A program made the position numbers and the translations under genes. Positions 2,129-5,453 of a stretch of 21,797 nt of DNA are shown one piece after another; the stretch's first letter is position 1, and each line of letters starts with the position of its first letter. Origin of the DNA: a virus; the IMG/VR virus record IMGVR_UViG_3300006329_000033, positions 1-21,797 of that record; one strand, 5' to 3'. The notes under the pieces are model-generated. The model was given only the letters and a program-made list of their open reading frames with translations. It searched no databases and had not been told where the DNA came from.

Positions 2129-2924
2129 AATTTAATAAGAGAAGTTCTTTACGTTTCTTTTGATCTGCTGTGTAAGTGTTAGTAGATCTCATAGTATAGG
2201 TTAGATCCCAATCCTTTTGATACCAGTTTGGAAACCTATCTTTAATATACAATTCTGAATTATATGTTATCATACATTTATGTTCTGAAGCACACGCTTC
2301 ATATGCAAACAATTCATGATCAAATTGTTTATGCAAGTTTCCTTTAGTACCATACAAATTATCTTTAATAGCATATGGTGGATCTAAAAATACAAATGCA
2401 TCTTTACCCCAAAGCATATCTCTATAATTTTCATTGGTAATTCTCCAGTTACTAATCAATTCACCTAATGCAGGAAGTTTATCTATACCTCTAAAGGTAA
2501 AGTTCTGCCTAGATGCTTGCTCACTAAAAGAACTATTAGCAGTAAGTCCACTAAATGAACATTTGTTTGCTACGTAAAAATTAAAACCTGCTTCATAAGG
2601 ATCGTTCTTTAATTTATCCTTAGCATTTTCAAATGCTTCCTTATGTGCATCAGGACTCTCACCGAGTTCTGTCTTTAATTCCCTTAGATCATCACACAAC
2701 TGCTGTCCGTGGTCTCTGAGGGTCACCCAGAAGGCATACAGAGGATAATAGAGGTCATTTACCCACACTTCAGTATTAGGGTATGTCTGAGTAACATAAA
2801 TTGCCATAGAACCACCTCCTAAGAACGGTTCTCTATACTGTTCTATTGGAGGTAGATGTGTTTTAAGGAATTTAAGTGCTCTTGACTTACCGCCAGGATA
2901 ACGTAGAGGTGTGGTGTACTTCAT
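2058..2924 (-). CDS. dam: D12-class DNA adenine methyltransferase (Dam-like)
   Basis: This enzyme transfers a methyl group from S-adenosylmethionine to the N6 of adenine in DNA. The D12/Dam layout is complete: RYPGGKSRALKFL at residues 8-20, the AdoMet-binding PFLGGGSMA at 33-41, the acidic ND pair at 56-57, a NKCSFSGLTAN region at 120-130, and the catalytic DPPY at 181-184. A KRKELLLLNYE segment at 257-267 marks the usual end of the fold. The last 22 residues, ending AELIG, lie beyond that and overlap the gp62 reading frame, as if the original stop was lost. It overlaps the upstream membrane-protein gene by 4 bases. It probably modifies phage DNA against host restriction, or host sites; the target sequence cannot be read here. 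Confidence 0.93.
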   Translation of the reverse strand: MKYTTPLRYPGGKSRALKFLKTHLPPIEQYREPFLGGGSMAIYVTQTYPNTEVWVNDLYYPLYAFWVTLRDHGQQLCDDLRELKTELGESPDAHKEAFENAKDKLKNDPYEAGFNFYVANKCSFSGLTANSSFSEQASRQNFTFRGIDKLPALGELISNWRITNENYRDMLWGKDAFVFLDPPYAIKDNLYGTKGNLHKQFDHELFAYEACASEHKCMITYNSELYIKDRFPNWYQKDWDLTYTMRSTNTYTADQKKRKELLLLNYETQSQLDGLSEVDQRDKAELIG

Positions 2925-3190
2925 TTAGATAGATATACGATTCCGTTATTAGAATCATTAAAATCTCCTGCAGGAGGGGGAGTTAATGGTTTATATATCC
3001 CTCTAGGTCTGTAATCATCAATCAATACTTCTATTGCTGTATCAAACCATCTGTTCATTGACTTTGCCATAGCACGATAAGATGTACCGACATAGATTTG
3101 ACCTGCAACTACTGCTACAGTTGCTGCACCCCAGAATGAATAGTACCATCTGGATTTTACTTGTGCTCTCACACGATCTCGTTTGTTCAT
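2921..3190 (-). CDS. Small single-pass membrane protein (89 aa)
   Basis: The protein begins with a strongly basic stretch (MNKRDRVRAQVKSR), then an aromatic and hydrophobic segment at about residues 15-36 (WYYSFWGAATVAVVAGQIYV), then a helix and a Pro-rich portion (PRGIYKPLTPPPAG). Positive-inside charge would place the N-terminus in the cytoplasm. Its ATG overlaps the stop of the oxygenase gene by 4 bases and its stop overlaps the methylase start by 4, so it is part of a coupled cassette. No family is recognised. Confidence 0.7.
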   Translation of the reverse strand: MNKRDRVRAQVKSRWYYSFWGAATVAVVAGQIYVGTSYRAMAKSMNRWFDTAIEVLIDDYRPRGIYKPLTPPPAGDFNDSNNGIVYLSK

Positions 3191-3819
3191 GATAAAAATC
3201 TCGATTTAGTTTTACTTGTAGATGCTAATGAATCTATTAATTCATCCCACTTATCTGCCTGTACATATGAAAAACCAATAGTGGTTCTTAATTTGTCAGT
3301 AGAGTTGTTAGGGGATACTCCTCTATGTTGCCAGTTAGATGGAATTAGAACTCCTCTATTAGGTACATATGGATAATGATAATACTTATCATCATTATAG
3401 CATATAAATTCTCCACCCCATTCTTGATTCCATTCCATATTGGTAAAGAGAACAAAAGTCCATACCCAATCTTGTTTGAAATCTTTATGAAAGGTAGAGA
3501 TCTGACCAAAGGTTTGACCATTAACATGAATCTTACATAAGCGAATATCTTTTTTGATATGCTTTTGAATTTTCATTTTAATGATAGTAGCAGCTTCTAA
3601 GAACTGTTGCTTATCATGTTCCCATCTCATTCCCCAACAAAGGTTGTCTTTATATGTGACTCTACTTTGTTCAGGACCAACCCACATAACTGGTGGTTTA
3701 CTGTCAAAAGAGTATGATGAATTACATAGTGCCCATTCTCCATGGTGCAACTCATCATCTATTCCGAAGAAACATGGTAAAGGAAGTACCTCACCATCGT
3801 AATGAATTGGTGTGTTCAT
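3187..3819 (-). CDS. 2-oxoglutarate/Fe(II)-dependent oxygenase
   Basis: Members of this superfamily couple 2-oxoglutarate decarboxylation to hydroxylation or related oxidation of a substrate. The iron triad is visible as H111-x-D113 (FHKDF) and distal H165 (NWQHRGVSP), with R178 (KLRTTIGF) placed to bind 2-oxoglutarate. The GEFICY strand and the RGVLIPSNWQHRG turn are typical of the double-stranded beta-helix core. The length of 210 residues suits the single-domain phage members, which are common in T4-like cyanophages. The gene begins in a TAATG overlap with the upstream membrane-protein gene, with GAGG just before it. The substrate is unknown; modification of protein, nucleic acid or a small molecule is equally open. 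Confidence 0.85.
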   Translation of the reverse strand: MNTPIHYDGEVLPLPCFFGIDDELHHGEWALCNSSYSFDSKPPVMWVGPEQSRVTYKDNLCWGMRWEHDKQQFLEAATIIKMKIQKHIKKDIRLCKIHVNGQTFGQISTFHKDFKQDWVWTFVLFTNMEWNQEWGGEFICYNDDKYYHYPYVPNRGVLIPSNWQHRGVSPNNSTDKLRTTIGFSYVQADKWDELIDSLASTSKTKSRFLS

Positions 3820-4028
3820 TAGTCCTCATGGTCATCCCATTGATCAGTAAGACCTTCATTATTGAAAAATGCTTTGTATATACCATACCCTGATAGTAAT
3901 ACTAAAATTACTAGGATTGATATGCCAAAGGTAACGTTTGGATTAGCATTGTAATGAGGTACAATAGCATTACATTTTGTCCATGTGCCTGGTAGTGTGT
4001 ACACAGGAGGACAGGATAAAAAAGTCAT
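3819..4028 (-). CDS. Small single-pass membrane protein (69 aa)
   Basis: Residues 33-52 (TFGISILVILVLLSGYGIY) form one clear membrane segment. It is preceded by a 30-residue portion with two cysteines (C6, C19) and several prolines, and followed by an acidic tail (TDQWDDHED). A high-quality sigma-70 promoter lies so close upstream that transcription would begin almost at the ATG, so the message would be leaderless or nearly so. The stop shares a base with the start of the oxygenase gene. No family is recognised. Confidence 0.65.
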   Translation of the reverse strand: MTFLSCPPVYTLPGTWTKCNAIVPHYNANPNVTFGISILVILVLLSGYGIYKAFFNNEGLTDQWDDHED

Positions 4029-4033
4029 AATTC

Positions 4034-4062
4034 ATTATAGCATTAGTTAGCGGTGTTGTCTA
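4034..4062 (-). promoter_or_regulatory. Sigma-70-type promoter inside the accessory cassette
   Basis: On the minus strand TAGACA (4057-4062) is separated by exactly 17 bases from TATAAT (4034-4039), and TGC immediately before the -10 box makes an extended -10. Start of transcription would fall around 4027, on the ATG of the 69-residue gene. It would give the oxygenase, membrane protein and methylase genes their own host-type early transcript, separate from the halogenase. Confidence 0.65.
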
Positions 4063-5197
4063 CCCAATTCTTAAAGGCATATGTAGACCATTGAGCATAC
4101 CCATCATTACTAAAAGTGGGTTTAGATGGTGCCTTACCATTACCACCATATGCAATAGGTACTGCATCATTTCTACTGTTAGACATAGCAAACTCAAGGT
4201 ACTCGTCAAACGCTTCATCTGGTTCCCATGCTAGTTCAGCAGCATGTTTCCAGAAAGGTGTATCATACTTTGAACCATGTCTATAATGCCATAAGATAAA
4301 ATCTTGACTACGTTTAATATAGGTAAGCATATCTTTCTTTATCTTATCAGCATGATTATCACCTGATAAGTAATTATTAAATATAGTTCTTGCAAACTGT
4401 AAGTATCCTTGTGTAGAAGATGCTTCCATTGGTTCTAAGAAATATAATCTATTACCATTTAAAAAGATCCTACCATCTACTATAGGATTCTTTGCAACGT
4501 AACTATTAAAAGTAACATGTTTAGTTACCTCAACATCAAACATTTCTAATAGATTCTTCTGTGCTTCTTCTTTAGAAGTTATCTTATCATTATACAAATA
4601 ACCAACAGATCCATCCCTAGCAGGTGACTTCTCTGAAGTTGGAATTATAAATGTCCATCCATGTGGTGTTGCTACTGATCTAGTCCAATGTTGATTGACC
4701 GTTTTGAAGAATGGTCTAGCAAGTATACATGCATTAACAGCACTAGTTAAATTATCATAATCAGTTAAATCTTTTGGTGTTCCTCTACAATCAAAGACAT
4801 AAGTAGAGTCAACATCATATGGAGATACATCATCCTCTACTACTTTGAATTGACCTGACTTTAATATATGTTCTTGCATCTCCCATGGGCAGAAATGCAT
4901 TGCCATACTATTGGCAGGAAAATCATGAAAGAACTTATCTTTCTTTTTACCCCATCCTTCATATAATATACCACTCTTAAAGGTAGCATGTATGGGATTA
5001 TCATACCAATTAAAAGAAGTAGCAGACCACAGCATTCTTGGAGGATCCAATAGAGATGCTTGACCTACCACTTCTGGCGGTATTTCTGGGTTATATATTA
5101 GTTCTACTTCGTGCTCAGGATAATTCCTAAGATACCATGCAAAATGAAGTGCAGTAAAGCAACCTGCTGTTCCTGCACCAACTACGCTAATCTTCAT
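4043..5197 (-). CDS. prnA: Flavin-dependent halogenase (tryptophan-halogenase family)
   Basis: These enzymes use reduced FAD, oxygen and halide to make HOX, which travels to a conserved lysine and halogenates a substrate. The N-terminus holds the dinucleotide-binding VVGAGTAGCFTA (residues 5-16). The lysine motif is ATFKSGI with K74, matching Lys79 of PrnA. EPMEASSTQG carries E258, matching Glu346 of PrnA. The WxWxIP signature appears as WTFIIP (181-186), with Phe in place of the second Trp. I chose ATG at 5197, so the protein begins right at the FAD-binding strand; a start at 5254 would add 19 residues that overlap the upstream gene. At 384 residues it is shorter than PrnA (about 540), as is known for cyanophage relatives such as the iodinating VirX1 of phage Syn10. 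The flavin reductase is not in this window and may come from the host. The substrate is unknown. Confidence 0.88.
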   Translation of the reverse strand: MKISVVGAGTAGCFTALHFAWYLRNYPEHEVELIYNPEIPPEVVGQASLLDPPRMLWSATSFNWYDNPIHATFKSGILYEGWGKKKDKFFHDFPANSMAMHFCPWEMQEHILKSGQFKVVEDDVSPYDVDSTYVFDCRGTPKDLTDYDNLTSAVNACILARPFFKTVNQHWTRSVATPHGWTFIIPTSEKSPARDGSVGYLYNDKITSKEEAQKNLLEMFDVEVTKHVTFNSYVAKNPIVDGRIFLNGNRLYFLEPMEASSTQGYLQFARTIFNNYLSGDNHADKIKKDMLTYIKRSQDFILWHYRHGSKYDTPFWKHAAELAWEPDEAFDEYLEFAMSNSRNDAVPIAYGGNGKAPSKPTFSNDGYAQWSTYAFKNWVDNTAN

Positions 5198-5453
5198 GTA
5201 AATCTGGTAAATGCGGCTCAACCCAGTGATCAGTATTATCAATACCTGCTGCATTGATATATCTCATTATATGTTGGTCTACCTGATGGTAGATATCGTG
5301 TAGATCTAAGTCCATACGAATGTCATGAGCGATCTCTGCTACCTGTTTCTCAGTTAAACAATGATCAGGGTGTAGTAAGTCACAGCATGGAATTCTGTGT
5401 TCTATCAATTCATTAAGATTAATTCTTATTTCGTAATCTTGGTATACAGGCAT
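5187..5453 (-). CDS. His-rich acidic hypothetical protein (88 aa)
   Basis: The protein of 88 residues has ten histidines and three cysteines. The cluster HRIPCCDLLHPDHC at residues 19-32 and the C-terminal HWVEPHLPDLHED are the densest parts, which hints at metal binding without matching a motif I know. The middle (TEKQVAEIAHDIRMDLDLHDIYHQV) is helical. It sits directly after gp44, where gp62 would normally be, but shows no resemblance to gp62. It overlaps the halogenase start by 11 bases, so the two are likely co-translated. No family is recognised. Confidence 0.65.
   Translation of the reverse strand: MPVYQDYEIRINLNELIEHRIPCCDLLHPDHCLTEKQVAEIAHDIRMDLDLHDIYHQVDQHIMRYINAAGIDNTDHWVEPHLPDLHED

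Follow-up and report, generated by a model that had tools for sequence, protein, structure and literature searches.

Introduction

Halogenases have long been annotated in phage genomes. The roles of H101, F103 and W455 of PrnA and of E461 of RebH, the acid contacting the amino group of free tryptophan, are established structural knowledge. We know of no activity for any member of the compact group of phage proteins considered below, and in the literature searched we found no paper that treats compact halogenases as a class. The size difference is nevertheless visible in a table from 2010, which lists cyanophage halogenase genes of 1104–1167 bases beside genes of 1437–1593 bases and lumps them as one cluster (PMC3037559). 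VirX1 of cyanophage Syn10 (6QGM) belongs to the long type, with 531 residues and intact WxWxIP and FxxPxxSxG motifs. Lys79 of Thal is irreplaceable, and HOX forms with iodide, bromide and chloride (PMC7948982). Variants or absence of WxWxIP are known in active halogenases such as Bmp5, while the tunnel motif FxxPxxSxG is said to be present, with variants, in all active members (PMC8407142).

Here, we describe a halogenase gene of the short type on a viral contig with T4-like genes. The window analysed is this whole contig of 21.8 kb (21,797 nucleotides).

Results

The halogenase gene and its genomic setting

The predicted halogenase gene at 4043–5197 proved to be real. It lies on the minus strand and encodes a protein of 384 residues beginning MKISVVGAGTAG. 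The open reading frame called by the program opens at 5254, and the start at 5197 is favoured by the relatives. The predicted phage setting was also borne out: the major capsid protein shares 66% identity with its counterpart in Synechococcus phage ACG-2014f, and the cobS, clamp-loader and dam genes match those of Prochlorococcus and Synechococcus myoviruses. The carrier is a virus of marine cyanobacteria. In P-SSM4, gp44, dam and gp62 directly adjoin one another, no halogenase lying between them. On the contig, five genes separate gp44 from dam, namely those for a His-rich protein, the halogenase, a PsbN-like protein and a 2OG oxygenase, plus a further small gene; relative to P-SSM4, this cassette is thus an accessory insertion. 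No flavin reductase was seen in the 21.8-kb window. The late promoter ATAAATA has five matches in the window, fewer than expected by chance and none close to the halogenase gene.

Table 1. Features of the compact halogenase gene and its product; counts refer to 61 compact and six long phage rows.
Feature	Position	Strand	Basis and conservation
Compact flavin-dependent halogenase gene	4043..5197	-	384 aa; homology searches, start backed by relatives
GAGTAG, GxGxxG dinucleotide-binding (FAD) motif, residues 7–12	5162..5179	-	G7 and G9 invariant, G12 in 60/61
Gln46 in VGQAS, FAD strap	5060..5062	-	Q in 53/61 compact, E in 6/6 long; Glu in PrnA/PyrH
Lys74 in ATFKSGI, counterpart of catalytic Lys79 of PrnA/Thal	4976..4978	-	phmmer alignment; Lys in 61/61
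H91-D-F93, HxF active-site motif of the PrnA H101/F103 type	4919..4927	-	H in 56/61, F in 58/61; aligned to HAF of 9luq
WTFIIP, residues 181–186, clade variant W-x-F-x-[IVL]-P of WxWxIP	4640..4657	-	F183 in 61/61 compact, W in 6/6 long
Glu258 in EPMEASSTQG, counterpart of PrnA Glu346	4424..4426	-	phmmer alignment; Glu in 59/61, Gln in 2/61
Trp370 in YAQW, on RebH W466 in the lid	4088..4090	-	profile alignment, low-scoring end; W in 55/61

Homology and predicted fold

The protein scored 94 bits against Pfam Trp_halogenase (PF04820; cut-off 21) and 220 bits against PHROG 2928, and phmmer matched halogenases of the PDB down to an E value of 4e-13, with 9luq as the best hit. Thus, the similarity is not due to chance. 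An AlphaFold model built from 52 rows reached a pLDDT of 88.6 and a pTM of 0.88. Compared by Foldseek and VIA-align, it resembled SttH most closely (Z 36.7 over 357 aligned residues), followed by 9luq (35.2), PrnA (approx. 32), MibH (31.3) and VirX1 (27.1). The model therefore predicts a halogenase fold over almost the full length of the protein. SttH, Th-Hal, AbeH and the L11 halogenase 9luq, the best predicted fold matches (Z 35–37), differ in being bacterial proteins of approx. 490–525 residues with only 19–21% identity.

The sequence ranking agrees with the fold, as 9luq, RebH and PrnA are placed ahead of VirX1 by both. VirX1 had been named as a cyanophage relative of our protein. It is homologous, carries the Lys and Glu and is predicted to share the fold, but the relationship is a distant one (27.8 bits in the sequence search, 20% identity in the fold comparison). 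In Syn10 (L034), VirX1 and a second, 507-residue halogenase directly upstream overlap (973–2496 and 2486–4078). The closer comparison is with the short proteins of isolated cyanophages, namely Sf-CH8, S-ShM2, S-SSM5, S-RIM4 and the short copy of S-SSM7 (T4-GC 212, PHROG 2928). These fall in the same length class and share W-x-F and the invariant Lys; their identity to the window protein ranges from 50% (Sf-CH8) down to approx. 30%, and their genes occupy other genome sites.

Active-site residues

The proposed equivalence of K74 and E258 with K79 and E346 of PrnA was confirmed by exact phmmer alignment and by conservation in the 61 aligned compact proteins. The HxF type and the position of the lid Trp likewise match PrnA and RebH. 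These tryptophan 7-halogenases differ in being approx. 150 residues longer (538 in PrnA, as had been noted) and in having the strap Glu, the acid for recognition of free tryptophan and the second motif Trp. Gln46 of our protein occupies the position of E46 of PyrH in published numbering, and the E46Q mutant of PyrH has been solved as 2wes. Position 35, at the end of the second strand, where an acid is usual, is Tyr or His in all compact rows. N247 and N249 are invariant among the 61 compact rows, the long rows having V/I and L, respectively.

WTFIIP departs from the strict WxWxIP signature, as originally predicted; it is, however, no private alteration, since W-x-F is fixed throughout the compact proteins. 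As active halogenases without WxWxIP have been reported (PMC8407142), this variant does not disqualify the protein from halogenase membership. The halide loop reads F253-P256-A259-S261, both the S and the G of strict FxxPxxSxG being replaced, and we have therefore lowered our claim of activity. The same A-S loop is found in long phage relatives that keep WxWxIP (HTVC008M and P-SSM2), and 9luq also has S instead of G. In a halogenase-like protein of Campylobacter phage CP21 (L031:3001-4200), the second Trp is kept (WCWTIP) and Gln stands at the position of the catalytic Glu.

A compact viral clade

Members of the compact clade have approx. 360–400 residues. The tree splits them from the long phage halogenases with support of 100/100, the long side comprising only six rows and its join being flagged as a long branch; with this reservation, the window protein falls outside the VirX1-like clade. 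Relative to the long rows, deletions fall mainly in three stretches: the spacing from F93 to H101 is 8 residues in compact and 41–59 in long rows, that from H101 to D136 is 35 versus 48–58, and the C-terminal tail measures 69 versus 78–114 residues. Judged from the alignment, the shortness reflects loss of the segment following HxF, of part of the FAD-domain sheet and of part of the C-terminal tail. Against relatives with 91% identity, dN/dS was 0.13–0.14. Nearly all relatives have intact frames; one (L012) is split into two open reading frames. The group is a distinct compact viral branch of an ordinary enzyme superfamily.

Scanned with a 19-row alignment, IMG/VR yielded at least 599 matching stretches, at least 562 of which encode relatives. 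The same alignment recovered four relatives from approx. 85,000 prokaryote genomes, a lower bound as the scan relied on one exact peptide pattern. All four are in metagenome-assembled genomes, and a copy in a cyanobacterial host was not found by that pattern. Three of the four lie amid small or unassigned genes. The fourth (L111:3932-5098), on a Poribacteria contig of 90 kb, has an M48 peptidase, a zinc peptidase, PhyH and a flagellin-like protein as neighbours; it looks chromosomal and is a possible cellular member. The family is thus largely, not strictly, viral.

Genome sites and neighbouring genes

Approx. 45 loci have the compact gene between gp23 and the gp19-like/uvsY genes. The site adjoining gp44 is that of the window's own clade, and in other loci the gene lies near fibre or structural genes. 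As genome site and tree agree closely, moves between sites must have been few. In approx. 20 loci a SegE-type GIY-YIG endonuclease gene adjoins the halogenase, lying directly upstream in L010 (320-766) and in approx. 18 similar loci, and free-standing homing by such an endonuclease could be the source of the gene's mobility. Tandem compact copies with a 4-base overlap, each with the catalytic Lys and Glu, occur in L019 (2916-4004 and 4001-5095), while S-SSM7 and P-TIM40 have one compact and one long copy each.

The His-rich open reading frame (5187–5453) does overlap the halogenase gene upstream, by 11 bases, but the idea that its product is a partner was rejected. Homologues with 72–85% identity are present in P-RSM4, S-TIM4, P-HM2 and S-SSM4, all without a compact halogenase match, and gene order is not conserved: in S-SSM7 the gene is approx. 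55 and 116 kb away from the two halogenase genes. More distant relatives of the protein are not His-rich.

At 3819–4028 on the minus strand, the window encodes a 69-residue protein with a PsbN match over its C-terminal 40 residues (31 bits; cut-off 25). Homologues with 70–90% identity, mostly annotated as hypothetical, occur in many Prochlorococcus and Synechococcus phages. Genes for 2OG-Fe(II) oxygenases lie near several compact halogenases (L022:5354-5998, L060:2853-3497, L026:3065-3652, L109:5160-5837 and 3187–3819 of the window). They account for no more than 14 of the 86 genes close by versus 5 of 142 farther ones, in loci that are non-independent and with two Pfam counts that may overlap, so that the association is suggestive only.

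Discussion

On balance, we consider it fairly probable that the protein is an active halogenase of an aromatic substrate other than tryptophan, made during infection. Our data show the homology, the predicted fold, the key residues with their conservation, and selection; from there we infer the use of FADH2, the halide, the type of substrate and the role in infection. FADH2, presumably supplied by a host flavin reductase, would bind to the Rossmann part and react with O2 to give C4a-hydroperoxyflavin, which a halide would convert to HOX, most easily iodide or bromide, possibly chloride. HOX would then move to Lys74, which would direct electrophilic halogenation of an aromatic ring gripped by H91, F93 and W370; E258 would stabilise the ring cation. 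The aromatic cage of H91, F93 and W370 appears to be retained, and the profile alignment places no acid at the position of RebH E461, in a low-scoring stretch (in RebH, Y454, Y455 and E461 make the amino and carboxylate contacts). Because HxF is kept, W370 appears to be kept and this acid seems to be missing, the substrate is likely to be aromatic and probably not free tryptophan. Without the segment after HxF, the pocket should be more open, admitting a bulkier aromatic molecule or a residue within a peptide. That the clade as a whole comprises virus-specific halogenases of a bulky or macromolecular aromatic target, such as protein Trp/Tyr or a host pigment, in the infection of marine cyanobacteria is a tentative extension that we regard as rather improbable.

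The original prediction that the enzyme looks active is likely from homology and both catalytic residues, but is less certain than it seemed, because the strap Glu is Gln, the acid of strand 2 is lost, S and G of the halide loop are replaced, the second Trp is Phe and two members have Gln at position 258. Most of these changes are clade-wide (E-to-Q at position 46 in 53 of 61), as would be expected if a former halogenase had turned into another FADH2/O2 enzyme, e.g. an aromatic monooxygenase or oxidase, with Phe183 and Gln46 marking the change and K74 kept for another role. The Trp motif has indeed been proposed to block monooxygenation (PMC8407142). Yet the clade has held on to the Lys without exception and to the Glu in all but two members, Bmp5 and others are active with a variant motif or none (PMC8407142), and HTVC008M and P-SSM2 combine the A-S loop with WxWxIP. 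We therefore consider such a switch unlikely, if worth keeping in mind.

The more open pocket expected from the lost segment, together with the leakage of HOX documented for Thal (PMC7948982), would also suit a protein whose useful product is free HOI or HOBr that hits the host or competitors, with no one specific substrate. As the conserved aromatic cage and E258 argue for a bound substrate, we hold this to be very unlikely. Large internal deletions relative to PrnA and the split frame of L012 might even suggest a decaying gene without function; this is scarcely credible for a diverse clade with conserved key residues, almost uniformly intact frames and a dN/dS of approx. 0.13.

In summary, the compact halogenases are marked by a fixed signature of their own, are frequent in marine viral contigs and are almost entirely missing from cellular genomes; as a family they offer a clean target. 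The enzymes are small and are carried by phages of culturable hosts (Sf-CH8, S-ShM2 and S-SSM5), and the residues changed in the compact clade yield direct predictions on halide and substrate.
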